Below, one piece after another: positions 4,540-64,000 of a stretch of DNA of 64,000 nt. A program made the translations under genes and the position numbers. Each line of letters begins with the position of its first letter. Positions within the stretch are counted from its first letter, which is position 1. The stretch covers positions 291,875 through 355,874 of the IMG/VR virus record IMGVR_UViG_3300047476_002078, one strand, 5' to 3'. This stretch comes from a virus. Below the pieces are notes generated by a model. It was not told where the DNA came from. It searched no databases and saw nothing but the letters and a program-made list of their open reading frames with translations.

Positions 4540-5058
4540 GTGAGCAAATCTAAAAAATCTTCAGTAGCTCTTTTTCCTTTCCAGACTTCAGTTTTAGATT
4601 ATAAAATTGGAGATCATGTAAAGAAATTGACTCGAAACAACGAAAGTCAGATTGTTGGTATAGTGACTCACATTTTACCAAAATCTTGCAAAATTAGAGT
4701 TCAGTGGACTTACGGAAATGAATTAGAGTCGCCTGAAGAAATCTACAAAGTTTCGCCAACTCTTTATCCAACTAGCGTAGGATTTGATACTTCTTATGAC
4801 AGTTGGGAGAACAGAGACAGTGAAAAAAATTACGGCACTTCTCTCCCTAAAAGACCAAAAAAATATTTAGAGTCTTTAGCTGATAAGATAGCATCAAAAC
4901 ATGTCAACGCTACTTCAATTTTAGTTGAAAACATACTTAGTATGAAAAAAGCTAATCTGAACGAACTACAATGTTATTTAAAGATGAGTAGTAAGTATGC
5001 CAAGAGTGTTGGAGATAGCTTACTAAAAGAATTGGTTTTATCTGTTTATGAAGAATAA
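4540..5058 (+). CDS. Hypothetical protein with SH3-like fold signature
   Basis: The GTG at 4540 is preferred over an ATG at 4453 because AGGGAG lies at 4528-4533 and the longer form would overlap the previous gene by 68 bases. The product is 172 residues. Residues ~15-60 (VLDYKIGDHVKKLTRN ... GIVTHILP ... IRVQWTYGNE) have the rhythm of a small SH3/KOW-type beta barrel of the kind found in several large phages. The second half is helical. The function is unknown. The stop overlaps the next ATG, so it is part of the same translational unit. Confidence 0.6.
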   Translation: MSKSKKSSVALFPFQTSVLDYKIGDHVKKLTRNNESQIVGIVTHILPKSCKIRVQWTYGNELESPEEIYKVSPTLYPTSVGFDTSYDSWENRDSEKNYGTSLPKRPKKYLESLADKIASKHVNATSILVENILSMKKANLNELQCYLKMSSKYAKSVGDSLLKELVLSVYEE

Positions 5059-5818
5059 AATTGCTATTGATTTAAACAAAGTAACTAACTCTTTGGATGC
5101 TAGATTCAAGTGTGAATTATTAGAAGACAATCTTCTTTGTATCGAAAATAAATTTGGCTTACCAAAACATATTTATGTAAATGATAAGGGCGAGATTTGG
5201 ACAAGTAGTGCTGACGTACTGGTAGATTCAAAAAATGTTGGCGATGTTGTGAAAACAGTTCGTAACCTAGCTGCTTCTAAACAAGAATTGGTCTTCAAGG
5301 TAAGCGATTTATTCAAATTAGTCGTTCCTCCTGACTGTTCGCTACCTGAACCAGAACTATTAGAAGACGAAGTTTTTGAAGTCGGTAATGACCTTGCTTC
5401 TGACATTTTGAAAGAGCCTGAAATTTTAGCACTTAACCTACCTCAAGAAGATGAAAATGAAGTAGTAGTAATGGTTTTTGATTCTATTGCTGACGATAAA
5501 ATCCAATCTTTTGAGGAAATGGAAAGCTTCATAGCTCCAAAATTGGCTTCTTTTTTAAATGATACTTTTGAAAATATGAAATTTATTAATATTGGAAACG
5601 GTTTAGTTGAAATTGTTTTTGATTCTAAATTAGCTTCAAATGTATCAAAAGATCAATTTTGTGATTTTCTTAAAGTAGCTTTTCAAGATGTAGATTTTTT
5701 TAATTTTTACTCAAGTTGCGTAAAAGATTTTTCAAAAAAGATTTCTTCTGATTTACCTGATTATTTTAAAATAAGAAATGAAGTCATAAATGAAGTGCTG
5801 GAGCAAATAAATGGATAA
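5048..5818 (+). CDS. Hypothetical acidic protein
   Basis: 256 residues, not recognised. The ATG lies 11 bases inside the end of the previous gene. An alpha/beta N-terminus is followed by an acidic linker (residues ~95-135) and a mainly helical C-terminal half with many Phe and Asp. It overlaps the next start by 8 bases. There are no enzyme motifs. The tight overlapping arrangement with its neighbours and its position just upstream of the prohead protease suggest a head-assembly or core component, by inference only. Confidence 0.55.
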   Translation: MKNKIAIDLNKVTNSLDARFKCELLEDNLLCIENKFGLPKHIYVNDKGEIWTSSADVLVDSKNVGDVVKTVRNLAASKQELVFKVSDLFKLVVPPDCSLPEPELLEDEVFEVGNDLASDILKEPEILALNLPQEDENEVVVMVFDSIADDKIQSFEEMESFIAPKLASFLNDTFENMKFINIGNGLVEIVFDSKLASNVSKDQFCDFLKVAFQDVDFFNFYSSCVKDFSKKISSDLPDYFKIRNEVINEVLEQING

Positions 5819-6164: not shown

Positions 6165-7796
6165 ATGGCTTTTTTAAAATATGCAGATGCTATAGTAAGA
6201 AATCCTAATTTAGAGCCAAAAGCTTGGAACAATATGCGAGCCGCTGCAACGGCAGTCAGAGTTCCGGTTTCTTCCATACTTGAAGATTTTTCGCCAGACA
6301 AATATCTACTTACCCACGCTACAATTGTAGCTTCCGTAGATGTAGAAGATAATGATTATTATATAAAACCAGACTGCTCACAATACGTTAATCAAAATGG
6401 CGACTGTTGGGAAAGGCAGCTTTTGATGGCTTCTTATCCAACATTTATTGGAGCTTATAATTATTTAGAGCATGTTCAAATTCCAGCTTTGTCAAAAGGC
6501 AGAATTATTGACGCTGTTGCTAGAAGTGTTTCAAATAACAATTCAGTTTATATAGATATTCTTGTAGCTACTGAAAGAAAGCACAGAGAATTAGTTGCAT
6601 CAATTGAAGGTGGAAAAATTTCTACACTTTCTATGGGGTGCTCAATCAAATATTCAATATGTTCCGCCTGCGGTAACAAAGCAGCCGATGAAACTGAATT
6701 ATGTGACCATATAAGATATATGAAAAATTCTTATTTCGTTGATGAAAACGGAGTAAAGAGGATAATTGCAGAACTTTGCGGTCATCGTGAAGAAAAAGAT
6801 TCTAACGTGTTTATTGAAGCATCTTGGGTTGCTAATCCAGCCTTCAAGGGTGCTGTAATGAGAAATATTTTATTTCCAAAAGATTCTTTAGAAAGTGTAG
6901 AAGTAGCAAAGAAAATTGAAGCTTCTTACGTTCTTAAAAAAGTAGAAGAAAATAGTTTAGACGCTTATTTAAAAGCAGCTTCACTTCGTAAAGCAGTTGA
7001 AGACCCAATGGATTTCCCAAATAAAGACGAAGAAGATTTAGTTAAACCAGAGCAAGCTCAACCAGAGCAAGCTCAACCAGAACAAGCTCAACCAGAGCAA
7101 GCTCAACCAGAACAAGCTCAACCAGAGCAAGCTCAACCAGAGCAAGCTCAACCAGAGCAAGCTCAACCAGAGCAAGCTCAACCAGAGCAAGCTCAACCAG
7201 AACAAGCTCAACCAGAGCAAGCTCAACCAGAGCAAGCTCAACCAGAGCAAGCTCAACCAGAGCAAGCTCAACCAGAAGAAGATTCTTTTGATGGGGTTAT
7301 AAATAAAGTTAAAAAAGAAATTCGCCAGCAAGTTATTGACGAACTGCAAAAAGAGTTGTCTGACTCGGTAACAACAAAAACACCGGATTTCTCAGATTCA
7401 GACAAAATGAATCAAGGTTGGAATACTAACGATAATCTAGTGAAAGCTTTTATTGAGATATATCAACCCAAAACAGGATTTTCAAAAGCTAAATTAGCCT
7501 CAATTTTTAAAATGGTTGAAGCTTATGAAAATAAGAAAGATATTGTTAAATTGGCTCACAGTTCTCGTGACCTTATAGATTTTTTTGAATTTGTAGATAC
7601 TTTTCAATTAAATCCAAAAAGTCTCAAGAAAAGTCACTACAATATTCTTAGAAAAGCTTCTAGCGAAAATTTAAGTAGTTTTGATAGTTTTTTAAACTTT
7701 GTTGCAAGTAACGGTATTTCCGATAATGCAGTAATTAACAGTATTTTAGCAAGGGCTAAGTTTATTCGTGAAAAATTTAAGGACGATAATCGCTGA
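6165..7796 (+). CDS. Prohead (capsid maturation) serine protease, candidate
   Basis: 543 residues. The N-terminal ~230 residues match the logic of herpes-fold phage prohead proteases (HK97 U35 / T4 gp21 type). A His in YLEHVQIP (H103) is followed by G-R-I-x-D-A and a beta strand, then a helix and the K-I-S-T-L-S-M-G element with candidate nucleophile S156. A probable zinc-binding insertion follows: C166, C169, C180, H182. A 15-copy PEQAQ linker (residues ~295-369) separates a C-terminal helical domain, so this may be a protease fused to a core protein. The downstream order of basic protein, acidic scaffold, decoration proteins and capsid supports the call. The Ser/His assignment is by analogy, not alignment. 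Confidence 0.6.
   Translation: MAFLKYADAIVRNPNLEPKAWNNMRAAATAVRVPVSSILEDFSPDKYLLTHATIVASVDVEDNDYYIKPDCSQYVNQNGDCWERQLLMASYPTFIGAYNYLEHVQIPALSKGRIIDAVARSVSNNNSVYIDILVATERKHRELVASIEGGKISTLSMGCSIKYSICSACGNKAADETELCDHIRYMKNSYFVDENGVKRIIAELCGHREEKDSNVFIEASWVANPAFKGAVMRNILFPKDSLESVEVAKKIEASYVLKKVEENSLDAYLKAASLRKAVEDPMDFPNKDEEDLVKPEQAQPEQAQPEQAQPEQAQPEQAQPEQAQPEQAQPEQAQPEQAQPEQAQPEQAQPEQAQPEQAQPEQAQPEQAQPEEDSFDGVINKVKKEIRQQVIDELQKELSDSVTTKTPDFSDSDKMNQGWNTNDNLVKAFIEIYQPKTGFSKAKLASIFKMVEAYENKKDIVKLAHSSRDLIDFFEFVDTFQLNPKSLKKSHYNILRKASSENLSSFDSFLNFVASNGISDNAVINSILARAKFIREKFKDDNR
7047..7271 (+). repeat. 15 tandem copies of a 15-bp unit (PEQAQ)
   Basis: Fifteen consecutive copies of CCAGARCAAGCTCAA lie in frame inside the prohead protease gene. 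They differ only by G or A at one wobble position (GAG/GAA). The near-perfect DNA identity points to recent expansion by slippage or recombination. The protein product is a Pro/Gln/Glu-rich flexible linker. Confidence 0.95.
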
Positions 7797-8318: not shown

Positions 8319-9626
8319 ATGAGAAACAGACTTACAAGATTAAAGAAAGCAGACCCTTTCACACTAGGACGTGAAAAAGAGAATCCACCTGTTGAAAAAT
8401 ATACTAACGGGGACCCTGATTCATGGGCTGAGACTCCTTACGACAAAAAACATTGGGAAGACGATAAGCGTGAAGAAACTAACCACGCTGCCGAATCAGA
8501 CCACAATTTCGGTGCTTCTGTAAAAGCTTCTGTAAAAGTTGCTCGTGAACTTCGTGAAAAAGCACTTAAATGCGTTCACATTGCTTCTGCTCTTTTCCCT
8601 ACAGCTTCAGAAGAAACTCTTGAAGCTCAAGGATTTGACCTTATGGAACTTTCTGATCGTTCAATCGAAGCAACACTTAAACGTATTGCTGAAATGGAAG
8701 AAATGAAAGAAGACGAAGCTCAAGAAGAAGAACAAGAAGAAGTAATGAAAGAAGCTCGTTCTCTTCTCGCAAAAGTTCGTTCTTTAATTGCTGAAGCTGA
8801 AGAAGGAGAAAAAGAAGAAGCTCTTGAAGAAGATGAAGCTTGTGAAGACGAAGAAGAAATGAATCAAGCTGAAAAAGCTGCATCTGTTCTTGTTAAAAAA
8901 GCTTCGGCTCTTGTAGCTGCCGCTGAGTATGAAGAAGAAATTGGTGCTGAAGAAGAAGCTGAAGCTAAAAAAGAAGAAGCAAAGCAAATCCTTGCTAAGG
9001 CTAAAAAAATTCTTGCAGGAGAGCTTCCACCAGCACTTAAAGAAAATGCAGAAAAGATGAAAAAACTTCATGAAGAAGGTGCAGAAGTTGATAATTCTAA
9101 ACTTAATACTGAAGGTCTTGAAGAAGCAGAAATGAGTCTTGAGGAAAAGAAAGAAGCTGCCCTTCGCCACTTAGCCGCTGCTAAAAAGCTTATGGCTGAA
9201 GTTGGAGTTGAAGATAAAGAAGAAGCTCACGAAGAAGAAGCACAATCTGAAGCTATGGAAGAAGAAGTAGAATCTGAAGAAGAAGCTATGGAAGAAGAAG
9301 TAGAATCTGAAGAAGAAGCTATGGAAGACGAAGAAGAACTTTCTATGGAAGAAGTTGACATGATTCCGTCTGAAAAAGACGAAGCTCTTGAAGACCTTTT
9401 CATGTCTCCTGATATGAAAGATGCTAAAGAAGCTTATGAAGACGCTTTCGGTGGGGAAGCTCACGAAGAGAAAGAAGAAAAACAAGCTTCTAAAACAGCT
9501 TCAAAGGCTCCTAAAAAAGGTGCTAAAACTCTGAAAGGTGGATTAAAAATTAGCTCTGTAAATAGTGCTGAAGATTTATCTAACTTGTGGGACTGCCCAC
9601 CAGATGTTTCTCACCTATTTAAGTAA
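8319..9626 (+). CDS. Acidic prohead scaffold / core protein
   Basis: 435 residues with strong GGAGGA upstream of the ATG. The composition is dominated by Glu, Ala and Lys in long helical runs (residues ~65-400), typical of phage scaffolding or core proteins that are degraded by the prohead protease. A near-perfect 33-bp repeat makes two MEEEVESEEEA units. The C-terminus is less charged, ending in DLSNLWDCPPDVSHLFK, and could be the capsid-binding end. It sits between the candidate protease and the decoration and capsid genes. The assignment is from composition and order, since such proteins rarely show sequence identity. Confidence 0.65.
   Translation: MRNRLTRLKKADPFTLGREKENPPVEKYTNGDPDSWAETPYDKKHWEDDKREETNHAAESDHNFGASVKASVKVARELREKALKCVHIASALFPTASEETLEAQGFDLMELSDRSIEATLKRIAEMEEMKEDEAQEEEQEEVMKEARSLLAKVRSLIAEAEEGEKEEALEEDEACEDEEEMNQAEKAASVLVKKASALVAAAEYEEEIGAEEEAEAKKEEAKQILAKAKKILAGELPPALKENAEKMKKLHEEGAEVDNSKLNTEGLEEAEMSLEEKKEAALRHLAAAKKLMAEVGVEDKEEAHEEEAQSEAMEEEVESEEEAMEEEVESEEEAMEDEEELSMEEVDMIPSEKDEALEDLFMSPDMKDAKEAYEDAFGGEAHEEKEEKQASKTASKAPKKGAKTLKGGLKISSVNSAEDLSNLWDCPPDVSHLFK
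9249..9338 (+). repeat. 33-bp tandem repeat in the scaffold gene
   Basis: Two exact 33-bp copies (9249-9281 and 9282-9314) are followed by a degenerate partial third copy (9315-9338). Each encodes E-A-M-E-E-E-V-E-S-E-E. The identity at DNA level indicates recent in-frame duplication. Confidence 0.85.
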
Positions 9627-10762: not shown

Positions 10763-11632
10763 ATGAAACCAGCAGATAACGCAACAAAACAAAAAGTAAT
10801 CAGCGAACTGATTAAAACCGCCGCAGGCAGAGCAAAATTAGCTGCCTCTATGGTTCAACCTCTTCGCTTCCGTCGTGATTACACTTCAATTGGACGTAAA
10901 ACATTCCTAGTTGAAGCTTTACCAGATGGAGCACTTCCAATCTACGATAAAGACCCAAAGGCTACTGCCTACATTATCGGTGAAGAAGGTGAAAACATTC
11001 TTGCTATCCAAAAGCCTAAGCGTGTTATTTTCCCTCTTTTCGAGATTGCTTCTAACCCAGAAATTCCTCTAACGCAGATCAAAGAGCGTCGCTTCGACCT
11101 AATCGAACGTGCTCAAGACCTTGCTAAAGCTGAAATTCAAGCTGAAGAAGATGGTCGTGTATTTGAAATCATGAACGCAATCGCAGGTGCGGCTACTGAC
11201 GATGGTATCACTAACCCTGATATTCCAGTTGTAGCTCCTCTAACTGCTTCTGTTATGGCTGACTCTTTTGCAGACGTTGAGCGTCACGATCTTCGTGTTG
11301 CTAAAATTTTCGCAAACGCTAAAGACTATACAGATATTCGTAAATGGGGTCGCGACGTTCTCGACATCGAAACTCAGCAAACATTACTTAAAACAGGTCT
11401 TCTTGCATACCTTTGGGGTGCTCAAATTCTTGTTTCTCGTCGTGTTCCAGTAAACTACGTTTATACTTGCTGTGAAGCAGAAATGTTTGGACGTATTCCT
11501 GTAAGAACTGAACTTACTGTTCTTTCTGCGGATGATCCGAAAGCAAGAACTATCGGTTTCTCAATCTTTGAAAATATCGGAATTGGTGCTCATAACCCTG
11601 CCGGTCTTTCAAGACTTGTTCTTACTCGATAA
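10763..11632 (+). CDS. Major capsid protein, HK97 fold
   Basis: 289 residues, with AAGGAG upstream. The early segment RRDYTSIGRKTFLVEALPDG and the mid segment with AEIQAEEDGRVFEIMNA fit the N-arm/E-loop and spine-helix order of HK97-type capsid proteins in large phages. The codons are noticeably richer in optimal-looking C-ending choices than the neighbours, as expected for the most abundant product. It has its own leader hairpin and is followed at once by a strong terminator. The order of protease, scaffold, decoration proteins and capsid is canonical. A short capsid of 289 residues implies little or no removed propeptide. Confidence 0.75.
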   Translation: MKPADNATKQKVISELIKTAAGRAKLAASMVQPLRFRRDYTSIGRKTFLVEALPDGALPIYDKDPKATAYIIGEEGENILAIQKPKRVIFPLFEIASNPEIPLTQIKERRFDLIERAQDLAKAEIQAEEDGRVFEIMNAIAGAATDDGITNPDIPVVAPLTASVMADSFADVERHDLRVAKIFANAKDYTDIRKWGRDVLDIETQQTLLKTGLLAYLWGAQILVSRRVPVNYVYTCCEAEMFGRIPVRTELTVLSADDPKARTIGFSIFENIGIGAHNPAGLSRLVLTR

Positions 11633-17329: not shown

Positions 17330-18562
17330 GTGGTAGTTTTTGAAAGAGGTCAACAACTTACTAAAAACGATCTAAATATTTTTGTTAGAGATAACGAAGG
17401 AAATTTAATTGACCCTTTTTCTATTACATACACTATTTACGATAGGACTGGTAGCAAGCCTGTTCTTGTAGGAGGTTCTTTAAATCAGATACCTAGTAGA
17501 GATTCTGTTGGTTACTATTGGGTAAATGTTAGAATGGATGAAGGGGAAAATCTCGGTGAATACGAAATCCAATGGGATATACGTTTAGTAGAAAACGGAA
17601 ACAGGGAGCAAGTAAATCAAAGGTTTTCTATTGTTAGAAAATCAACTCCTCTTCAGTTTCTTGCAAATACTGGAGGGGTAGCATATTACCCCGGACAAAT
17701 ACTTGGACCTCAAGAATTATACATTCAAGTTTTGAATGAACGTAATAACCCATTTGACCCAAAAGAAATTTATTATGCAGTATTCGACAGAACCACAGGA
17801 TTGGACATTCTAGTTGGCGGTTTAAAAAACCAACCTGTAAGGCTTTCTACTGGTAAATATTATGCAAATTATACTGTTCCTCAAAATGCTCCAGTAGGGG
17901 ATTATTCTATTCGATGGACTTTTATTGATGATGAAGGGAATCCTGCAAGAAACGTAGTGCAAGAATTTGCAGTAGTTAATCCATCAACTATTGTTAATAG
18001 CATTTACAATGAAAATGAAAGAACTATGGTAAGAAGATTAAGATTCTTACTTCGTGATAATAACCCTGACAGAAACTACAGATTTGTACCGCCTGAACAT
18101 GAAAAAGTTATTCAGAATTACACGGAAACTTTTGGGTTTATCTGGACTGACGAGGAATTATACGAATATTTATTGATGGCTGTTGATGCCGTCAATATGG
18201 CTCCACCTATAGAACAACACACATTAACAAGTTTACCAAATTTTCTTCAAACTATCGTAACGGTAAAAGCAGCTTCTTTAGCTTTATCTGCATTAAGTAT
18301 TAACTGGATTCACGACGAGTTTGATTACAGTATTGGGGGAGTTTCTTTACAGATTGATAAGTCTTCTAAATATCAAGGTATGTCTGACAAATTTGAACAA
18401 GAGTATCAAACTTCTGTGGAGCGTTACAAAGATTTTGGAGTCAAGATTGTTAAAGGTATCCAACAACCTAAATATGGAATTGGGGTATCGGCAGCACTTG
18501 GTCCCTTTTCTTCTCAGGGTGTTCAGAACAGAAGAAATTTTATTTCTTCCAATAGAGTTTAA
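17330..18562 (+). CDS. Neck / head-tail connector-like protein with two Ig-like repeats
   Basis: 410 residues from a GTG with AAGGAGA upstream. Residues ~5-105 and ~118-218 are two related beta-sandwich repeats. Each contains a D-R-T-G/T ... L-V-G-G and ends with G-D/E-Y-x-I-x-W. The C-terminal ~190 residues are helical (MVRRLRFLLRDNNPDRNYRF, AASLALSALSINWIHDEFDY) and resemble, from memory, neck or head-completion proteins of large phages. The fusion of surface-type Ig domains to a connector-type domain suggests decoration of the neck. It is not an enzyme. Confidence 0.55.
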   Translation: MVVFERGQQLTKNDLNIFVRDNEGNLIDPFSITYTIYDRTGSKPVLVGGSLNQIPSRDSVGYYWVNVRMDEGENLGEYEIQWDIRLVENGNREQVNQRFSIVRKSTPLQFLANTGGVAYYPGQILGPQELYIQVLNERNNPFDPKEIYYAVFDRTTGLDILVGGLKNQPVRLSTGKYYANYTVPQNAPVGDYSIRWTFIDDEGNPARNVVQEFAVVNPSTIVNSIYNENERTMVRRLRFLLRDNNPDRNYRFVPPEHEKVIQNYTETFGFIWTDEELYEYLLMAVDAVNMAPPIEQHTLTSLPNFLQTIVTVKAASLALSALSINWIHDEFDYSIGGVSLQIDKSSKYQGMSDKFEQEYQTSVERYKDFGVKIVKGIQQPKYGIGVSAALGPFSSQGVQNRRNFISSNRV

Positions 18563-21173: not shown

Positions 21174-21407
21174 GTGTCGAAAAAATTAGCAAATAATATT
21201 CGTGAAATTGCAACTAAGCTAGATAAGTATTCATCCGCATCAAAACTGTATGAGTATGAAATAGATGGTTTTAAATTTTATAGTTCTGAAAAAATGCCTT
21301 CTGGTATTAGACTTCCTGTAGGAAAAGCAGAATTTACTAAAAACTTTTTTAATACTACTGGTGAATTATCAAAATCTTTAGAAGAAGACTCAATAAAGGA
21401 GAATTAA
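21174..21407 (+). CDS. Small paralogue A of a tandem pair
   Basis: 77 residues from a GTG start. An N-terminal helix (LANNIREIATKLDKY) precedes the core YEYEIDGFKFY-S-S-E-K-M-P-S-G-I-R-L-P-V-G-K-A. The next gene encodes a close copy of the core with a diverged leader, so the pair arose by tandem duplication. The family is unknown. The core is short, beta-rich, and has conserved Gly, Pro and aromatic positions. Confidence 0.65.
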   Translation: MSKKLANNIREIATKLDKYSSASKLYEYEIDGFKFYSSEKMPSGIRLPVGKAEFTKNFFNTTGELSKSLEEDSIKEN

Positions 21408-21408
21408 A

Positions 21409-21675
21409 ATGAATAAATTTGAAAAACTTGCGAGTGAAATCCGTGAGCTTGCCTATGAACTAGAAGTTTTTGGAGTAGAGACAGATAAAGTTGCTGCCGC
21501 TTCAAAACTATATGAGTATGAAATTGACGGGTTTAAATTTTACACAGATGAAAAAATGCCTTCAGGTATCCGTCTCCCTGTAGGAAAAGCAAAATATACA
21601 AAAAACTACTTTTCTACCAGTGGTCAATTAGCAAAAGCTCTTGATGAAGAAAGAGACTATTCAAACGATCTTTAA
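21409..21675 (+). CDS. Small paralogue B of a tandem pair
   Basis: 88 residues with AAAGGAG upstream. Its core (SKLYEYEIDGFKFY-T-D-E-K-M-P-S-G-I-R-L-P-V-G-K-A) is nearly identical to the product of the preceding gene. The leader is longer and different (FEKLASEIRELAYELEVFGVETDKVAAA). The conserved core and variable leader suggest that the leader is a separate targeting or propeptide element. A hairpin follows the stop. Confidence 0.65.
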   Translation: MNKFEKLASEIRELAYELEVFGVETDKVAAASKLYEYEIDGFKFYTDEKMPSGIRLPVGKAKYTKNYFSTSGQLAKALDEERDYSNDL

Positions 21676-21684
21676 TTTTCAATA

Positions 21685-21709
21685 AAGCCTGTCGGTTCTC
21701 GGCAGGCTT
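21685..21709 (+). terminator. Hairpin terminator candidate
   Basis: AAGCCTGTC pairs with GGCAGGCTT (one G-T pair) around a 7-base loop after the second small paralogue. The downstream sequence is AAAATATTT rather than a T-run, so efficiency is uncertain. Confidence 0.5.
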
Positions 21710-21727
21710 AAAATATTTGGAGTATTC

Positions 21728-22606
21728 TTGAAAAACATATTAATATTTATAGCATTTTCTTTTTTTATAACTTCAGTTAAAGCAGATTTACCAAAAAATG
21801 ATCTCTACATTCCAAGCCACGTTAAAACTTCCTCAACGATTACAGAAGAAGATTTTTTAAAAGCTATAGAAGATATGAAAAATATCTATTTGCCCATTTT
21901 TAAAAATAACTACGACGCTGAATTAGTAATTGAAGCTAAATGGCAAGACGGAACAGTAAATGCTTTTGCTCAACAGACAGGTAAAGTATGGAAAGTGAGC
22001 ATGTATGGAGGTCTTGCAAGACATAAAGAAACTACCCTTGATGGTTTTCGTGCTGTTATATGTCATGAAATTGGTCATCATATAGCAGGAGCACCAAGAA
22101 AGCCTAGCTTTGTCGGAATTTCATGGGCATCAAATGAAGGTCAGTCTGATTATTATGCTACGACAAAGTGCTTGAGAAAATTTTTATCTCAACCTGAACA
22201 AATTAAAGAAACTTACGCTTTATATAGAAAAGAAATAACTGACGAAGAGGATTTATTCGCAAAAAATCAATGTAAGCTAGTTCATAAAACCTTCAAAGAT
22301 AGAGCGATATGCTTTAGATCAGCGTTAGCTGGAAAATCATTGGCTCGCCTTCTAGGCTCTTTAGGCGGAAACGCTGAAGTGTTTTTTAGTAAAAAAGATA
22401 CACGAAAAGTAACAAAAACAAATCATAATCATCCTAATGCTCAATGTAGAATGGACACTTATTTCCAAGGAGCTTTGTGCATTAATGATATGGATGAACT
22501 GGCTGAAGCCGAAGATGTTAAAAAGGCATACTGCACAGCTATTGAAAATTTTGAGATAGGTATAAGACCTGACTGTTGGTACGCAGCATCCGAATACGAG
22601 AAATAA
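21728..22606 (+). CDS. Secreted zinc metallopeptidase, Bdellovibrio-like
   Basis: 292 residues from a TTG with TTGGAG upstream. Residues 1-19 are a clear Sec signal peptide (hydrophobic FIAFSFFITSV, A-D cleavage). HEIGHH at 113-118 supplies the zinc-binding histidines and E114. E137 in SNEGQSDYYAT is the likely third ligand. Cys residues (C112, C148 and at least six more in the C-terminal half) suggest disulfides for an exported enzyme. The order of CHEIGHH, W-A-S-N-E-G-Q, CLR, then H-P-x-x-Q-C-R-x-D-T-Y matches, from memory, a family abundant in Bdellovibrio-type predators. It is probably host-derived cargo and may act in the periplasm or in prey remains. Confidence 0.75.
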   Translation: MKNILIFIAFSFFITSVKADLPKNDLYIPSHVKTSSTITEEDFLKAIEDMKNIYLPIFKNNYDAELVIEAKWQDGTVNAFAQQTGKVWKVSMYGGLARHKETTLDGFRAVICHEIGHHIAGAPRKPSFVGISWASNEGQSDYYATTKCLRKFLSQPEQIKETYALYRKEITDEEDLFAKNQCKLVHKTFKDRAICFRSALAGKSLARLLGSLGGNAEVFFSKKDTRKVTKTNHNHPNAQCRMDTYFQGALCINDMDELAEAEDVKKAYCTAIENFEIGIRPDCWYAASEYEK

Positions 22607-22825
22607 CTAACAAGAAGCCACGCTTACTTTTTTAGGGTACAGATTAATTACTTGTGCTTGAAACCCAGAAGTTGTTTCTAATGGGCAACTGGTAGTATTT
22701 TTTTTAGTACATCTATTGCACCATTTTTGAAGTTGCTTACCTTCTAACTCTTGGTAAATATTACATACTGCGAGTTTTCTTTTGTATTTATTTTTAGCAA
22801 AATTTGAAAAAGCTATTACTTCCAT
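22607..22825 (-). CDS. Small Cys-rich protein
   Basis: 72 residues. The ATG at 22825 is chosen because GGAGA lies five bases upstream; a longer in-frame start exists at 22867. Cysteines at 21, 36, 39, 47 and 72, with WCNRCTKKNTTSC in the middle, suggest a small zinc ribbon. It is not recognised. It converges on the metallopeptidase gene with no gap between the two stop codons. Confidence 0.5.
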   Translation of the reverse strand: MEVIAFSNFAKNKYKRKLAVCNIYQELEGKQLQKWCNRCTKKNTTSCPLETTSGFQAQVINLYPKKVSVASC

Positions 22826-22890
22826 GTCTATCTCCAATCTCAGCAATCTCTTCTGAAAGATTACCAAAAAACTAAAAATTGTGTGGAAAA

Positions 22891-22919
22891 AGTGTAAGAA
22901 AAATAATCGCTTTAATCAA
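22891..22919 (-). promoter_or_regulatory. Possible sigma70-type promoter for the Cys-rich gene
   Basis: On the - strand TTGATT (22914-22919) is followed after 17 bases by TACACT (22891-22896). Each hexamer matches consensus in four of six positions. The rest of the 22826-23008 gap shows no other gene, tRNA or obvious repeat. Confidence 0.3.
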
Positions 22920-23008
22920 CGGTTATAGTAAGTAATTAGTCTAACACCTTCTAACTTTTGAATTAAGGTCTGCGTCATATACAAGTAATTGCGTAATGTA
23001 AGAAAATG

Positions 23009-25246
23009 TCATTTCTTGAAAAATAGTTTAAAGCTCAGACATCCGTTTATTTTTTTATTGTTGAAAAACAAAGAACCGAAGTTGAATGAGTGGTTTACAA
23101 AATATGCTGTAATAGAATTACCAAAAGAGCCGTTTTTACATTCTATGTTTATAAATATCTTTCTACCTTGCACGTCGATAGGATTAAAATAAAAGCTAAA
23201 CCAATCGTTATCTTGAATATTATCACAACCTACTGAAGAGAATCTGAGTAAATCACCGTTTAAAGAATTTGTGATAGATAGAAATAAATTACAATAATTT
23301 TTTCTGGAAAAAGTTCCCAAAAATAAATCTATTCTACAAAGATTAGGAGAATCTATGAAAACTTCCTGAGATATTTTTTTATTGCCGAATATTTCTCCGA
23401 AATTGTGCGTATGAAAATTTTGTTGCATCCCAAGTATAACTTGATTGTCTTCTTTTTCAGTAACTTGAATTAACCATTCTTGATAAGAATTATTTCCGTT
23501 GTTATCTACAAAATTACAGGAGAGGCGGTATATTCCTTTATTCTTGCTTGAAAAAATGTAAAAATGTCCTGAATGAGATATTTTATCATCGTTTAAAAAC
23601 CAGACTATTGGATAATCTTTTCTATGATTTTTTATCTCGAATCGTTGAGTTGTATCAGCTTCTAAATTAATTGATTGTACTGGAGCTTTATTATTTGTTT
23701 GAGTTTCTTTTGTTTTTATAAAAGTATGCGTGTTACCTTTATGCCAATAACCTGTCGTTGTAATAACTGTTGGAAAAATATTTTTCCATTTTTCGTGTAC
23801 TTTCTTAAATTCTTGCCAGTATCTATCTAATCCGTTTTTAGTAGAGGATGTGCCATCACTTTTATGATAAGCTGGGCAATTAATAACGACATTGAACATT
23901 CCTTTATTTTTTGAAATTAAGGATATGTCTGGTCCGTAAAAATGAAAATCTGATAGAGTGTATTCATCAAAGTAAATTTCATTACTTTTTCTGATTATTA
24001 TGCAAAGCTCATCTACTACATCAACTATACCTTCTGAAAATTGACCATATTTGTGATCTTTTCCTTCGTAAGGGTATGTTATTTCTCCATAGCAATGAAC
24101 CCAAATCTTTTCTTTAGGCTCTACTGGAATACCTTTATGAACAGGGGTTCTAATCCACTTAACTCCAGCTAAACCTGCAACTCCAAAACCTTGATATTTT
24201 GCAATTTCACGCAGAAATTCTTTAGTCCAATTTTTATTATAAATAACATCGTGGTGCGTACAAATGACAAAATCTGTTTTGGATTCTCTAATTCCTTTGT
24301 TCAAGGCTTTTGCAGATGAATATCTATTATCAAAATTGTATATAATTCTGAGATCAAAATTTTGATTCACTTGCTTCAAAAGTGATGAGATCAAACATTC
24401 ATTTAAAAGTGCTATGTCATGCGTACACACAACAAAGGTCATTTCATAAATTTTAGAATTTTTAACATAGATGTTTATGTCATGTGAAAAATCAGATACG
24501 TCTGATTTTATAACATGCTTCCATCTAGTCTTAAAAAATTCAAAATTTTTAGGCAAATTAGGATTAGCTTTAGAATAACTTTCGTAATGTCTTAAATTGG
24601 ACTGTGAGCATCCAACGATTTTTTTTATCTTGTGGTATTTAATTTTTAAACACAAGTCAACATCTTCATAAGCCCAATTATAGTTAGCATCAAAACCCCA
24701 AACATCTTCAAAATCCTGTTTCCTAATTAATAGGCAAGCCCCTGTAACAGACTGGTATTCTCTAGTTTTTAAATGGGTTTGTTTGTTGAGAGTTTTGATA
24801 TTCTTATATAAAGGGTCACTTATATTCACAGGCGATAGATTTTTATCAATTAAAACTCCGCCGTGTTGAAGTTCCCCGTTTGGATAGAAAAGATTAGCCC
24901 CGACTACTCCAATCGAATCATCATTTTCAATAAGGTTTAACATCGGAGTTAAAAAATCGTCTGTGGCTTCAGTATCATTATTTAAAAATAACAAATATTT
25001 ACCACTAGCTTGCCCTGCTAGATAGTTGTTCATGCTACTGAAGTTACCTTCATTAGTTCTCTCAATAATTTTTATTCTTGAATCTTTGAGAGACTGTAAC
25101 CACTCTAAAGAGCCGTCAGATGAACTATTTTCTCCAATAATCCATTCCCAATCAATAGAACTTAAATGCGTCTGTATTGACTGAACACATGTTTTTAAAA
25201 CATTTAATCCGTTATAAGTTGGAGTTATTATTGATACTTTTTTCAT
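23009..25246 (-). CDS. Two-domain GT2 glycosyltransferase with C-terminal beta domains
   Basis: 745 residues (ATG 25246; a GTG one codon earlier is possible). Residues 1-~245 are a GT2 glycosyltransferase: SIITPTYNG nucleotide-binding start, FLNNDTEA as the DxD-type site, and GFDANYNWAYEDVDLCLKI as the acceptor or ED motif. Residues ~265-500 are a second, more diverged GT2-like domain (FVVCTHD, FVICTHHDVIYNKNW). Residues ~530-620 look like an Ig/PKD-type beta domain and ~620-745 like a carbohydrate-binding beta sandwich. It overlaps the upstream exonuclease gene by 35 bases. It may glycosylate a virion fibre or host surface glycan. Confidence 0.7.
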   Translation of the reverse strand: MKKVSIITPTYNGLNVLKTCVQSIQTHLSSIDWEWIIGENSSSDGSLEWLQSLKDSRIKIIERTNEGNFSSMNNYLAGQASGKYLLFLNNDTEATDDFLTPMLNLIENDDSIGVVGANLFYPNGELQHGGVLIDKNLSPVNISDPLYKNIKTLNKQTHLKTREYQSVTGACLLIRKQDFEDVWGFDANYNWAYEDVDLCLKIKYHKIKKIVGCSQSNLRHYESYSKANPNLPKNFEFFKTRWKHVIKSDVSDFSHDINIYVKNSKIYEMTFVVCTHDIALLNECLISSLLKQVNQNFDLRIIYNFDNRYSSAKALNKGIRESKTDFVICTHHDVIYNKNWTKEFLREIAKYQGFGVAGLAGVKWIRTPVHKGIPVEPKEKIWVHCYGEITYPYEGKDHKYGQFSEGIVDVVDELCIIIRKSNEIYFDEYTLSDFHFYGPDISLISKNKGMFNVVINCPAYHKSDGTSSTKNGLDRYWQEFKKVHEKWKNIFPTVITTTGYWHKGNTHTFIKTKETQTNNKAPVQSINLEADTTQRFEIKNHRKDYPIVWFLNDDKISHSGHFYIFSSKNKGIYRLSCNFVDNNGNNSYQEWLIQVTEKEDNQVILGMQQNFHTHNFGEIFGNKKISQEVFIDSPNLCRIDLFLGTFSRKNYCNLFLSITNSLNGDLLRFSSVGCDNIQDNDWFSFYFNPIDVQGRKIFINIECKNGSFGNSITAYFVNHSFNFGSLFFNNKKINGCLSFKLFFKK

Positions 25247-27492: not shown

Positions 27493-28539
27493 ATGGAACA
27501 ATTAGAAAATCAAGAAATGCCAGCAAGCCCGAAACAAAAAGAACCCAAATATCTTTGTAAGGGTTTAGATATAGGAACAGGAACTATTATTGCTTCTCAT
27601 TTGGATGAGAATAATAATGAAGTTAAAAGTTTACGAGTCAGAGACGCTTTCGTGTCACTGGCTGTAGAGCAAAAACAAATGTTGAAGCTATCAAATATTT
27701 CATATATTGAAGAAGGCGACAGAGTTATTATTGTTGGAGACGATGCTGCAAATATCGCAAACATATTTAATCAGCCTTTAAGAAGACCTCTTAGTAAAGG
27801 AACAATTTCTCCGCAGGAAATTGAAGCTCAAAAAGTAATCAAGCATTTGTTTAGGCATGTTCTTGGTGAAGCTCCTGTGGCAGGAACACCTTGTTATTAT
27901 TCTGTGCCTGCGGCTCCTATTGATGCTGATATGGACGTTACTTACCACGAAATGATTATGGGTCAAATGGTTGAATCTTTAGGTTGGCAAGCGTGTCCTG
28001 CAAATGAAGCTCAAGCAATCGTATATTCAGAATGTGCTGACACTATGTTCAGCGGTTTTGCAATGTCCTTTGGTGCAGGGATGGTAAACGCATCTCTTTC
28101 ATATAAATCCATCCCTCTAATTACTATGGCTGTTGCTAGAAGCGGTGATTACGTTGATGAATCAGCCGCTAAAGCAACAGGTCTATCTCCTGCAAAAATT
28201 TGTGCCGTAAAAGAAAAAGGCGTTGATTTGTTAAACCCGAAAGGGCGAGAGCAAGAAGCAATCGCTATTTATTATAAAACCTTAATTCGTTACGCTTTAA
28301 CTAACTTTGTAGAAAAAATTAAAAGTCAAAACGTGATGGCTCAAATTGATCTTCCTGAATCTGTTCCTGTAGTTATTGGTGGAGGAACTTCTCTGCCGAT
28401 CAACTTTATGGAAGTTGTAAGACAGGAAGTTCAAAAGTTGAAAGGTTTTCCTTTCTCGGTAACAGATATAAGACACGCTAAGAATCCTCTATTCGCAGTT
28501 TCCAGAGGACTTTTAATCATGGCACAAAACCATGAGTAA
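27493..28539 (+). CDS. Actin-fold ATPase (MreB/ParM/FtsA superfamily)
   Basis: 348 residues, GGAGATG upstream. All nucleotide-site motifs of the actin/Hsp70 superfamily can be seen. Phosphate-1 is GLDIGTGTIIAS (24-35), a connect-like NEAQAIVYSE lies at 171-180, phosphate-2 is MSFGAGMVNASL (191-202), and the adenosine motif is VPVVIGGGTSLP (291-302). The size matches MreB and ParM (~320-350), and Hsp70-type C-terminal domains are absent. The segment LSPAKICAVKEKGVDL also fits the MreB/Alp type. It might form filaments that position phage DNA or capsids. The coiled-coil gene 9 bases upstream could encode its partner. It is unexpected inside a tail module. Confidence 0.75.
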   Translation: MEQLENQEMPASPKQKEPKYLCKGLDIGTGTIIASHLDENNNEVKSLRVRDAFVSLAVEQKQMLKLSNISYIEEGDRVIIVGDDAANIANIFNQPLRRPLSKGTISPQEIEAQKVIKHLFRHVLGEAPVAGTPCYYSVPAAPIDADMDVTYHEMIMGQMVESLGWQACPANEAQAIVYSECADTMFSGFAMSFGAGMVNASLSYKSIPLITMAVARSGDYVDESAAKATGLSPAKICAVKEKGVDLLNPKGREQEAIAIYYKTLIRYALTNFVEKIKSQNVMAQIDLPESVPVVIGGGTSLPINFMEVVRQEVQKLKGFPFSVTDIRHAKNPLFAVSRGLLIMAQNHE

Positions 28540-30387: not shown

Positions 30388-33141
30388 ATGGCAATTTTTA
30401 GCACTTACGCCCCTCCGGGCGTGTACGTTCAGACATTAACAGATACTTCAGTTCCAAGCATTATTGCAGGTTTGAGATTACCTGTTTTTATTGGAGTTGG
30501 AGCGGAAACTTTAAAATTAACCAATTTTGAAATTATCAGAGGTTCTTCTGCGACTTCTGATATTAGAATGGTTGGCGAAGACGTATCAAATCAATTTACA
30601 GGAACTAACAGAACTTTTAACGTGGTTCATTTTCCCGTTGTTGATGGAAACGGAAACGCTTTTGTAACAAATGACCCAAATGCTATTACTGTAACTGTAG
30701 ATGGGGAGCCTACTTCTATTATAAACCTTAACGGTGAGTTAGGGCAAGTAACTCTAGGAACTATACCTCCTCTCGGCTCAACTGTCAGGGTGTCCTATTT
30801 CTTTTCTCGAAAAGATACCAAAATCACAGACGATGATGTTAGTTCACAGGCGGACGGTTTAAATAAAACTTTCAAAGTTAATTTTCCTAGAATTGTTTCT
30901 GGGAATAATGGTGGAATTTCAACTACTGACCCTTCAAGATTGTCCGCTACTGTAAATGGTTCATCTGTAGTAATTTCTTCTGTTGACGGTGAGCTTGGAT
31001 TGGTAACTCTTTCAAGTGCTCCTGAAGAAGGAGATACAGTTCTTTTAACTTATTACACAAACACTTGGCAGGATACTTTTGACTTCCTTCCTCAAGATAT
31101 TACTTTAAGCAAAATAAATGCTGTAGGTAATACTCCAAATAAACAAGATTATTTTTTAGGTTCTGACTTCGTTATAGAATCTGGAAATAAAATTCAATGG
31201 GGAAGCTCAGTAAGTGTAGGAGTAGGTGAATTAGAATCAGGTGAAGCCTTCGATGACACTCAAATCCAAGGTATTTTAGTAGATAACCGTGCTTTCTTTA
31301 GACAGTGTTCTGGCTCATCTAACGGAAATAATAAAGTTTTTCAACTTGAATTTTTCCCTACAGATGGTACAGGTTTAGCGAAAGTAACAGATGATATTAC
31401 TAAAATTCAAGTATATGTTGGTAATTCTGTAGCTTCAGCCAAAGCTGCTGGACCTGTTTCTGTTGCACAACTTGTAGGAGGAACTAGAACAGTAACTCTT
31501 AAAAATGCACCTTCGGCAGGAATGAAAGTATATGCGTCTTTTTATTACAATAATTTAACAGACGACTCTTTCACAATCACAAATAAAGTAGCTTCTGTTG
31601 GAGCTTCCGCAGGAGATTACGAAATATCTTCAGATAATTTCGGGCAACTATTCGACGCTAATTTCGATATTACTGGTTCAATGGTAGCCGCTGCTAATTT
31701 TAGCATTGAAGGTATTAGTTTTCCGGGCGATGTAGAAGACACTTTAACAATACCAAGAGCGTCACTTGAAGAGACAGTGACTCTGACATTTACAGATAGT
31801 AACACTTATGTTGTTACCTCCTCTTTAGGTGCTTCTGGCTCAAACGGTACTGGATATTTAGACCAAACTTATATTGATTCAAAAACAGGGTTACGTTTTA
31901 CTGTTTTAAGCCCTTCGACATTTAGTTACCAATCTGGTGATTTTTTAATGATCGAATGTTCTCAAACATTTAAGACAGATTCAAACCCAACAAAGTCAAT
32001 ACCCGGAATCAATTTAATTGTTTCAAATTCTACTGGGGTAGGAGTAGGAAACACGGCTATTGTTAATACTTATAACAAAGGTGGAAGCGAGCCTGCTATC
32101 GGAGATTCTTATTACGTTTCTCTTGAGTACGCTAAAGCTGATTTCAAGCCAAATGTTTACTTAAATTTCAGAGATGTCGTAAGCAACTTTGGTGAACTAA
32201 ATGTTGAGAACAGACTAACTTTAGCAAGTAATTTAGCGTTCCTTAACGGTGCTCCTGCGGTAGCTCTAGTTCAAGTTAAAAAAGGTCCAGATGGATTACA
32301 GGCAAATGACTCTGATTATTTTGCAGCCATGGATTCATTAGAAAACCCTATGGATGGAGATGTAAGACCAAACATTATGGTTTGTTTAACAACAAGCAAA
32401 CCTGTAATTCAATACATGAAAAAGCATGTTGAGAAAGTTTCAAGTACAAGGTACGCACTTGAAAGAACTGGTGTTTTTGGTTACGCAATCGGAACAACTC
32501 CTGAATCTGCTCAAGATTTTTCAAAGGCTTTAAGAACCGAGCGTTTAATAGGAGTATATCCAGACGGAGCTATTGTAGCTCTAACTGACGCATTAGGTCG
32601 TGAAGTTGAAACCGCAGTTGATGGAAGCTTTTTAGCGGCAGCTTTAGCTGGATTAGCTTGTAATCCTTCTTTCGATGTTGCTACTCCGCTAACACGTAAG
32701 AGCATGGTAGGGTTTCGTCGCTTGTTTAGAAAACTTGACGCTGTTTCAGCCAATCAATCTGCAACCGCAGGTTTAACGGTTCTTACAGAAAATCAAGCGG
32801 CTATTCAAATTAGACAAGCTGTAACTACAGACATGAGTAACGTGCTTACTAGAGAGCCTTCTATAGTGTTTATTAAAGATTATGTTCAGCAACAAACAAG
32901 GGCAATTCTTGACCCATTTATTGCAGAAAAATTCTTACCTACTCGCATAACAGATATTGAAATATCTCTAGCGAATATGTTCAAAGCACTAATCCAAGGT
33001 GAGATTGTAACTGCATATACAGGAATTAAGGCTACTCCTAGAGCGAGTGACCCTACTGTAGCAGATGTCGTAGCTTTCTATTCTCCTGTTTTCCCGTTAA
33101 ATTGGATTCAGGTAAATTACACTATCAGAACTAGCCTTTAA
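30388..33141 (+). CDS. Contractile tail sheath protein
   Basis: 917 residues from the ATG at 30388 with GGAGGA upstream; an in-frame TTG at 30373 precedes that site. The N-terminus APPGVYVQ and the C-terminus WIQVNYTIRTSL are typical sheath termini, and the conserved core lies at ~620-917 (FRDVVSNFGELNVENRLTLA ... PSIVFIKDYVQQQTRAILDP). Three beta modules at residues ~64-140, ~148-226 and ~290-385 are inserted after the first sheath strand, making it longer than usual sheaths of 400-700 residues. These would project from the tail surface. Followed by a strong terminator. Confidence 0.9.
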   Translation: MAIFSTYAPPGVYVQTLTDTSVPSIIAGLRLPVFIGVGAETLKLTNFEIIRGSSATSDIRMVGEDVSNQFTGTNRTFNVVHFPVVDGNGNAFVTNDPNAITVTVDGEPTSIINLNGELGQVTLGTIPPLGSTVRVSYFFSRKDTKITDDDVSSQADGLNKTFKVNFPRIVSGNNGGISTTDPSRLSATVNGSSVVISSVDGELGLVTLSSAPEEGDTVLLTYYTNTWQDTFDFLPQDITLSKINAVGNTPNKQDYFLGSDFVIESGNKIQWGSSVSVGVGELESGEAFDDTQIQGILVDNRAFFRQCSGSSNGNNKVFQLEFFPTDGTGLAKVTDDITKIQVYVGNSVASAKAAGPVSVAQLVGGTRTVTLKNAPSAGMKVYASFYYNNLTDDSFTITNKVASVGASAGDYEISSDNFGQLFDANFDITGSMVAAANFSIEGISFPGDVEDTLTIPRASLEETVTLTFTDSNTYVVTSSLGASGSNGTGYLDQTYIDSKTGLRFTVLSPSTFSYQSGDFLMIECSQTFKTDSNPTKSIPGINLIVSNSTGVGVGNTAIVNTYNKGGSEPAIGDSYYVSLEYAKADFKPNVYLNFRDVVSNFGELNVENRLTLASNLAFLNGAPAVALVQVKKGPDGLQANDSDYFAAMDSLENPMDGDVRPNIMVCLTTSKPVIQYMKKHVEKVSSTRYALERTGVFGYAIGTTPESAQDFSKALRTERLIGVYPDGAIVALTDALGREVETAVDGSFLAAALAGLACNPSFDVATPLTRKSMVGFRRLFRKLDAVSANQSATAGLTVLTENQAAIQIRQAVTTDMSNVLTREPSIVFIKDYVQQQTRAILDPFIAEKFLPTRITDIEISLANMFKALIQGEIVTAYTGIKATPRASDPTVADVVAFYSPVFPLNWIQVNYTIRTSL

Positions 33142-42848: not shown

Positions 42849-43616
42849 ATGAGCAGAGAAATAAAAGTAGAAAGAATTTGCGATCATAAAGTAGTAGAAG
42901 ATATAGCTTTTATTGAAAGTGACAGAAGAACTATAAACATAATCAGAGATTTAGCTGTAAGTAAAAGTTTACAAATTAAAAGAAACGGTTTCGTTATTTC
43001 AGAAAATAGCCCTGAATTTGGGTTTAAGGTATTAGAAAATAAAAATTCTAGTCGGAAAAAAATTGAATTAAAGAAAAAACAAAAAAGTTCAGATGATTTT
43101 TTTGAATTAAGTTATACTACCTCTTTAACAGACTGCCCTAAATGCGAAGGTCTTTCTTATTATTTTGATTACGCTGTTGATGAATTAGGAAGGCTTGTTC
43201 TTATAAGCAATGAGGAAAAACTTCTCCAAGATGTTGTTAAGGGAACACTAACAATTAGAGGAACAAATACGTACTATCCTTGGTATGGAACAGTATTAGA
43301 CGCTTTAATTGGCGGTAAAATAACCAATATAGATAATTTAAAATTGTTAATGGCTCAAGACGTTGAAGCTTTATTACAAAATTTAAAAGACCTGCAAGAT
43401 CAACAAGCTTCGTTTCAAGAAGTTTCAGATGAAGAGAGGATAGAGCAATTAATAAGTATAGATGTAAGCCAGCCTGACTTTACCAATCCAACTCTCGTTG
43501 AAATATCAATAATTTTTCGTAATAGAGCCGGAAACATTAGAGATGTTAGAAGGGTTATTGATAAAAACAACCAGATGAAGCTGTATGCCCAAATTCAGGA
43601 TAAATTGAAAATATGA
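42849..43616 (+). CDS. Baseplate protein with CxxC motif, gp25-like region
   Basis: 255 residues. Residues 94-101 read TDCPKCEG (C96, C99). The segment D-E-L-G-R-L-V-L-I-S-N-E-E-K-L-L-Q-D follows, then RGTNTYYPWYGT, an element like that in gp25-type (W-like) baseplate proteins of large myophages, where it forms the inner baseplate ring. The C-terminus has a beta strand pair (EISIIFRNRAGNIRDVRRV). It lies directly upstream of, and overlaps by ATGA, the J-like gene, the normal neighbour of gp25-type genes. Confidence 0.6.
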   Translation: MSREIKVERICDHKVVEDIAFIESDRRTINIIRDLAVSKSLQIKRNGFVISENSPEFGFKVLENKNSSRKKIELKKKQKSSDDFFELSYTTSLTDCPKCEGLSYYFDYAVDELGRLVLISNEEKLLQDVVKGTLTIRGTNTYYPWYGTVLDALIGGKITNIDNLKLLMAQDVEALLQNLKDLQDQQASFQEVSDEERIEQLISIDVSQPDFTNPTLVEISIIFRNRAGNIRDVRRVIDKNNQMKLYAQIQDKLKI

Positions 43617-46600: not shown

Positions 46601-46732
46601 AAATACACAGTAACATATCTGGCTATTGGTGAGACTGGAGCAAAAGACATTATTTTGTCTTCTGTAGAATACGGTCAAATAGGAACTTTAAATATAACTT
46701 ATGCTAATAACGGCTTAACAATTTCAGGGTAA
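43613..46732 (+). CDS. Baseplate J-like protein (gp6/gp47 type)
   Basis: 1039 residues, much longer than P2 J (~300) or Mu gp47 (~360). Residues 1-75 look like an Ig-like module (NITISGTYEIGIDSIIV ... EGENKFVVQAVKG). The J core is visible near residues 420-550: GDLGNVDAGKIV, then R-E-S-N-S-S-L-A-T-R-S-L-L, GTEAGYFSNT and GVTRAKII. The J C-terminal domain is near 830-920 (IDMDITVVLESGADTIRV ... TKLGQNIYQSDIISIMENTNGV). Inserted beta domains resemble those of the sheath. It forms the periphery of the baseplate wedge. Overlaps the previous gene by 4 bases. Confidence 0.8.
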   Translation: MSTLNTPNITFPTSEPSFSTNIQNITISGTYEIGIDSIIVNQSSGGVTLNGFGGWSYSANLLEGENKFVVQAVKGTAFSGADFLAVIYDPNLITDFEDIVPNGIKIRQQRDSIKISVPASQNADFIGFNFYGAEDIGGGSIGFTLLNQSPVNTVDYFEDNKTTLNEEVTQVGNIVTTVTQQKVERISYISYTHNRQTQPLGIKPITEKNHYVVTSVFFDPINKQLVESAYSEELAAKPVVIDTQIKQIDQRTEGDFRVSIIDQILQADSTLDVKPGTVLRDTFVDPASTLFSRMFTILRFMNTAQSFSTLLSFDDPDSTGSSAPVLTTPEKNSLRQAILIPEDQASLVQDLIDAAFDKLASNVNKTRLPASQATGEITVYTKRVPEKDSIVQAGAICETLPDNINRVPSIRFEVLSGFTLRLSELSRYYNPTTQRYEFKLNIRALDSGDLGNVDAGKIVTAVSGFDSIFGIINSVPTEFGQDRESNSSLATRSLLAFLSVDSGTEAGYFSNTIGIKGVTRAKIIKAKDPLMQRDLDPLREIHTYGKVDIYVQGIQNRTVTESFGFSYRKIQNELFYIQSRPFMQFRATNSDVSPEYPIFQVIEVRNVTKNNVYDLTNLTISNDGNLIDLDESLETNQLIGLSITDVIRVTYIYRKSDNVRFLTQPVEKILSVTGSKSGELSSENYTLIRQDDPLLLGRSTSARDEIRFNFANGLPNAQKEVIAGEPLVLVGIFPQALSQVDVDLTTLEVKDVSNVLYVLNLDYEIIPGDNRTPPQIKRTNNGNIPDGSIVYLSYEAGEIMTVEYQVNDILTEVQEVIDEMRHLTADVVIKAAQPTFIDMDITVVLESGADTIRVDRNIRTNIGNFLANTKLGQNIYQSDIISIMENTNGVDYVVVPASKMVKTDGTQVIREVLANPQFEIYQVGSVTSYRSIQKLASKTLENGGPENEFRGIFENDFLLNMKQTDVEVSNEAGSGYISSDGTIIVSTRNGNNPNLNKYTVTYLAIGETGAKDIILSSVEYGQIGTLNITYANNGLTISG

Positions 46733-55556: not shown

Positions 55557-64000
<8,444 letters not shown>

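Follow-up and report, generated by a model that had tools for sequence, protein, structure and literature searches.

A predator-type secreted peptidase among the virion genes of a phage inferred to infect Bacteriovoracia

Why would a tailed phage keep, among the genes for its own virion, a peptidase that appears destined for export from the cell that makes it? The question is raised by a + strand gene at positions 21728-22606 of a 64,000-nucleotide stretch of DNA (the window). This stretch closes a virus record of 355,874 bases (IMG/VR IMGVR_UViG_3300047476_002078), whose capsid, sheath and baseplate genes, all within the window, mark it as that of a tailed phage (myovirus). The gene has a TTG start and encodes a protein of 292 aa, which we place in a family of secreted gluzincin peptidases from Bacteriovoracia. 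Taken as a whole, the evidence is best explained by a predator-derived protease, made late by a phage of Bacteriovoracia, that opens the bdelloplast and/or digests the prey within it, a reading that we hold with moderate confidence.

The protein begins with MKNILIFIAFSFFITSVKA, a Sec-type signal peptide by inspection and in a hydropathy scan (21728-21784, + strand), with cleavage predicted after VKA at residue 19 and the mature part starting at D; residues 1-20, at the predicted signal peptide, have low pLDDT in an AlphaFold2 model whose mean pLDDT is 93.3. The HEIGHH motif (residues 113-118; 22064-22081, + strand) lies within a helix spanning residues 104-119 of the model, and its invariance among homologues points to H113 and H117 as zinc ligands and E114 as the catalytic residue. 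The presumed third zinc ligand, E137, opens a second helix (137-153) and, with D141, makes up an ExxxD element (E137-G-Q-S-D141; 22136-22150, + strand) inside the stretch WASNEGQSD (residues 133-141). Further along the chain are HPNAQCRMDTY (residues 235-245) and a C-terminal RPDCW, and every one of the eight cysteines lies in the mature part. Across 62 aligned homologues H113, E114, H117, E137 and D141 are invariant, as are C112, C148, C182, C195, C240 and C283. The features on which the original prediction was built, namely a Sec signal peptide, HEIGHH, W-A-S-N-E-G-Q and H-P-x-x-Q-C-R-x-D-T-Y, are all present in this protein.

The start codon is preceded, 5 bases upstream, by a GGAG ribosome-binding site (21719-21722, + strand), and directly upstream of that site is a predicted RNA hairpin (AAGCCTGTC...GGCAGGCTT; 21685-21709, + strand; -16.6 kcal/mol, z -4.4) that also occurs in a related phage contig, L004 (z -4.2). 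The hairpin falls between the preceding gene and the peptidase gene and has no T run after it. Immediately upstream of the peptidase are two adjacent small paralogues (21174-21407 and 21409-21675), which have YEYEIDGFKFY...EKMPSGIRLPVGKA in common. The L004 copy of the peptidase is 92% identical to that of the window, with 78 synonymous and 28 nonsynonymous changes between them (dN/dS = 0.063), indicating purifying selection; a 31-base deletion, either genuine or introduced in assembly, also puts it out of frame. The low dN/dS, the invariant catalytic residues and the high mean pLDDT together argue that the open reading frame is not a product of chance.

No named family accommodates the protein comfortably. 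Pfam M48 (PF01435) matches only weakly (E 2.9e-4; 21.2 bits against a cut-off of 20.3) and over just 49 residues, covering 48 of the 186 profile positions, and several homologues score under the cut-off. No match was found in PHROGs or NCBIfam, no relative among 50,697 phage records (mostly isolate phages), and no PDB fold match at E <= 0.001 using the model, the top match being the M48 enzyme ZMPSTE24 (E 0.03, TM 0.27). We rejected an ordinary M48 membrane protease, given the lack of any further transmembrane segment and an unmatched M48 fold, and likewise a phage structural or prohead protease, given the signal peptide, the eight cysteines and a separate head protease gene at 6165-7796. The gluzincin label rests on the catalytic pattern of HExxH plus ExxxD, and we call the protein, as judged from sequence and model, a gluzincin with a putative M48-like core and not a member of M48. 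That it is a predator-type secreted gluzincin seems to us close to certain, export being inferred from the signal peptide seen in the sequence and from hydropathy.

Among cellular genomes the family is concentrated in predators. A scan of 84,980 species genomes recovered 54 loci, nearly all of them in Bdellovibrionota and mostly in Bacteriovoracales, with a few members in genomes labelled Pseudoalteromonas and Elusimicrobia; the best cellular matches were expected to fall within Bdellovibrionota and not outside, and they did so. Cellular loci matching the peptidase numbered 78, with tblastn E-values down to 8e-81 and identities of up to about 47%. In class-wide searches the family was found in 127 of 129 Bacteriovoracia genomes (mean 4.6 matches, maximum 11), a set defined as the class of G006 and named by inference from G006 being a Bacteriovorax isolate, compared with 2/185 genomes of Gammaproteobacteria (the class of a Pseudoalteromonas), one of these two positives being the genome chosen as the search centre. 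The class of a 'Bdellovibrionales' MAG (G015) and that of a Pseudobacteriovorax (G019) gave 33/58 and 17/56 genomes, respectively. Tandem copies are common, with three in a row at one locus (L016). The proposed resemblance to proteases expanded in Bdellovibrionota holds, the link seen in the classes searched, which leave out Bdellovibrio sensu stricto, being to Bacteriovoracia and not to Bdellovibrio itself.

In midpoint-rooted trees, the window peptidase and the copies from L004 and L003 made up a clade of phage sequences alone, whose sister group was a set of 14 Bacteriovorax-type sequences (support 96/86 with 87 sequences in the tree); the same placement was recovered with 92 sequences (support 88/88). 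The 198-kb phage contig to which L003 belongs has 29 similar proteins in common with the window's phage. Nesting within predator clades had been put forward as support for a predator origin, and placement in a phage-only clade as its refutation; each describes part of the result, with the sequence nested in the bacterial radiation next to Bacteriovorax, but inside a small phage-only clade of three sequences. A second phage clade (L065, L066, L069, L071) sits elsewhere among the bacterial sequences, as does a third viral group (L005, L070, L155, L156, L158 and others). A single clade of all 15 viral rows was rejected (p-AU 0.0005), and with it a single capture followed by spread from phage to phage, implying that phages gained the gene more than once; the exact number remains open, and the test did not reject a shared origin for the first two clades, that of the window and the second, G023-type one (p-AU 0.41). 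We are highly confident that the gene was acquired from Bacteriovoracia, and infer from the tree that an ancestor of this jumbo-phage lineage took it from a Bacteriovoracia host. In base composition the gene is on a par with other genes of the phage (GC 0.345 vs a mean of 0.332; GC3 0.226 vs 0.246), so it did not arrive recently from a compositionally different host. The idea of host-derived cargo thus has good support from the best matches and the tree, and this composition and an identity of ~46% mark the acquisition as old.

Independent evidence of gene exchange with Bacteriovoracia is provided by a second protease family. Two further HExxH proteins are encoded in the window's phage (G000:96735-97397 and 44100-44705) and one in the related phage G021, and a profile of these three matched 48/129 Bacteriovoracia genomes, with up to 10 copies in each, and 1/185 genomes of Gammaproteobacteria, the latter marginally. 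None of the Bacteriovorax-type genomes that neighbour the phage in the peptidase tree has this family, and the donors or hosts may therefore not be the same. When 20 kb of late-module DNA was compared with Bacteriovoracia genomes, at a depth of just two scored candidates per genome that is too shallow for CRISPR spacers to show, nearly all of the matches listed fell on the peptidase gene. Weak DNA matches to two Bacteriovoracia genomes at 9257-9338 of the window were set aside for want of a supporting protein match.

The gene is embedded in the virion module, between those for the major head protein (10763-11632, + strand; phrog_2522, E 1.2e-50) and the tail sheath (30388-33141, + strand; phrog_2839, E 1.3e-35). 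The head maturation protease (6165-7796, + strand; phrog_18299, E 2e-12) and a probable structural protein (17330-18562, + strand; assigned by late-module position only, with no PHROG match) lie upstream, and a baseplate wedge subunit (43613-46732, + strand; phrog_6, E 8.6e-21) lies downstream. The peptidase ends a + strand run and is followed by convergent genes on the - strand (22607-25246), comprising a small ORF (22607-22825) and a glycosyltransferase (23009-25246; PF00535, E 2.6e-29). This last-of-run position behind a hairpin, with convergent neighbours, also fits a loosely inserted accessory gene. An actin-like protein is encoded in the same late module (27493-28539, + strand; Pfam Volactin PF25216, E 3.3e-70), with relatives in G021 (32%) and, near the peptidase, in L157 (36%). 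Volactin was described from the archaeon Haloferax volcanii. Elsewhere, the phage encodes a full-length Lon protease of 790 aa (G000:C1:260983-263355), which matches a Bacteriovoracaceae locus at 48%, as well as a ClpX-like ATPase (276623-277804). Both ends of the record (about 55960-64000 of the window at one end, bases 1-890 of the record at the other) fall in one collagen-like GVQGET repeat ORF with compatible frames, so that we are probably dealing with a circular or nearly complete genome whose break lies within this repeat. The repeat is also likely to have produced, as an artefact, the long antisense ORFs at 56-63 kb.

Members of the peptidase family were found at 17 viral loci, some of them near-duplicates. 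In G023, G024 and G025 the gene is immediately downstream of that for the major head protein. In G022 it comes after genes for an Amidase_2 enzyme and a lipoprotein of the papain family, with a small nuclease-like gene next; the papain-peptidase-nuclease order recurs in G026, which has a second peptidase copy as well. Both contigs bear phage hallmarks, among them genes for terminase, for capsid or portal, and for baseplate. Another phage copy (L146:3304-4101) is broken by a stop and, like those of G022 and G026, has a nuclease-like gene after it. In L157 the peptidase is followed by a secreted polysaccharide deacetylase (4680-5342; PF01522, E 1.7e-29) and then by the actin-like gene also found in the window's phage. 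G021, a related jumbo phage of 198 kb, encodes an endonuclease I and a trypsin-like protease, both secreted, and a 236-kb phage contig (G438) encodes subtilases, one with a signal-like N-terminus. Signal peptides in these relatives, too, were assigned by eye and from simple hydropathy. The possibility that endonuclease I, papain and deacetylase are simply common phage genes was rejected: they occur in 4, 0 and 30 of the 50,697 phage records, respectively.

We consider it probable that the phage infects Bacteriovoracia. This host is inferred, with no CRISPR match, prophage or culture link: neither a structural protein of this phage nor the capsid protein of G023 was matched in 129 Bacteriovoracia genomes, and these searches turned up no prophage. 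Judging by gene position, the peptidase would be made late, alongside the head and tail genes; judging by the signal peptide, it would be exported by the host Sec system, and the eight cysteines suggest that it would fold in the predator periplasm and probably be held by disulfides. It would then act beyond the inner membrane of the predator, both in its periplasm and in the bdelloplast formed from the prey, where cleavage of envelope and prey proteins could ease the passage of virions through the two nested envelopes. A larger supply of amino acids for virion production may be a further effect. We lean towards such late action in the envelope space of predator and prey, although activity, localisation and timing are all inferred. 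In Bdellovibrio, destruction of the prey wall and the exit of the predator are governed by secreted deacetylases and a lysozyme, which mark and open that wall (PMC4876506, PMC7511926), and added lysozyme DslA causes early predator release (PMC7511926). We place release slightly above digestion because in other phages the peptidase sits beside an endolysin-type amidase or a polysaccharide deacetylase, and the late position of the gene likewise favours a role in release. That release is the main role under selection nonetheless remains a tentative proposal, and release and digestion of prey are not mutually exclusive.

The most durable alternative is that the peptidase serves feeding, not release. 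As an auxiliary metabolic gene, it would supply an enzyme that is exported into the prey compartment and speeds the digestion of prey proteins there, so that the infected predator has a richer pool of amino acids from which virions are built. Prey digestion is favoured by the nuclease, papain and trypsin-like genes of related phages, and a set comprising secreted endonuclease I, trypsin-like protease, papain and GH5 suits digestion over lysis; the host family, too, is secreted and expanded, as prey digestion would predict. However, the peptidase occupies late structural or amidase-adjacent positions and has a deacetylase for a neighbour in L157, leaving feeding alone an unlikely, if still credible, account.

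A different objection accepts lysis of an envelope but not the predator, with the gene having come from Bacteriovoracia by transfer and the phage now infecting a non-predatory or unknown host. The lack of a prophage or spacer tying the phage to Bacteriovoracia leaves room for this, as do the few family members in genomes labelled Pseudoalteromonas and Elusimicrobia. Against it stand two independent predator-associated protease families in one phage, the recurrence of the peptidase in several unrelated phages and the absence of relatives from the 50,697 mostly isolate phage records, and we regard a non-predatory host as improbable. Superinfection exclusion, in which the secreted protease would block other phages by trimming receptors at the surface of the predator or within the bdelloplast, is compatible with a signal peptide and purifying selection, but the late gene position and the wall-active or digestive enzymes found as neighbours in other phages speak against it; we know of no precedent in this peptidase family and think it very unlikely. 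Incidental cargo with no role in the phage is hardly credible, despite the gene being last in its + strand run beside convergent accessory genes and frameshifted in one relative (L004), given a dN/dS of 0.063, catalytic residues intact in the aligned phage copies and repeated acquisition of the gene.

Our preferred reading, of a predator-derived protease used late by a phage of Bacteriovoracia, points to a wider pattern, and the repeated capture of predator hydrolases by phages is a more interesting result than the single gene. We suggest, as a proposition for which the odds seem to us evenly balanced, that uncultured phages, including several jumbo phages, form a guild that infects Bacteriovoracia and has repeatedly captured the secreted digestive enzymes of these predators (here counting the gluzincin, the second HExxH family, papain, trypsin-like protease, endonuclease I and polysaccharide deacetylase), deploying them late to dissolve or take over the bdelloplast. 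Within that same proposition, we offer the name 'auxiliary predation genes' for the captured enzymes of a virus that eats a predator inside its prey. A literature search found no jumbo phage of Bdellovibrio-like predators, so a protein marker that singles out phages of Bacteriovoracia, as the peptidase may do, would allow their recognition in metagenomes. If the proposition is true, the notion of auxiliary metabolic genes would reach beyond metabolism to predation, through the predation enzymes that phages carry, and the phage copies would be minimal, selected enzymes with which to dissect the digestion and opening of the bdelloplast. Within Bacteriovoracia the peptidase family is expanded and nearly universal, yet it has no match in NCBIfam and no close fold has been solved.

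Among known systems, the peptidase resembles M48 enzymes (HtpX, Ste24/ZMPSTE24, BepA, LoiP) in its HExxH plus ExxxD gluzincin core and weak Pfam match, but differs in a cysteine-rich C-terminal half outside that match and in an overall fold that remains unmatched. It is closer to the unnamed gluzincins of Bacteriovoracia (e.g. L007, L014 and L060; genomes G029, G030 and G034), with which it shares the signal peptide, HExxH...ExxxD, a C-H-E motif, H-P-x-x-Q-C-R-x-D-T-Y and an RPxCW end at about 42-47% identity over nearly the full length; unlike them, the phage copy belongs to a virion gene module, is the only copy in its genome and forms its own long-stemmed clade. In proposed function, there is a likeness to the GlcNAc deacetylases Bd0468 and Bd3279 and to DslA of Bdellovibrio, secreted enzymes that act on the bdelloplast (PMC4876506, PMC7511926). 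The phages offer a parallel to Bd0468 and Bd3279 in the secreted polysaccharide deacetylase that L157 keeps beside its peptidase. The Bdellovibrio enzymes act on peptidoglycan, however, whereas the peptidase is of another enzyme class. Phage auxiliary metabolic genes, such as the photosynthesis genes of cyanophages, are derived from the host and kept by selection. The peptidase gene would similarly be host-derived, kept by selection and supportive of its host's special way of living; unlike cyanophage photosynthesis genes, its product is predicted to be exported, and its role would lie in predation or in exit from the prey.
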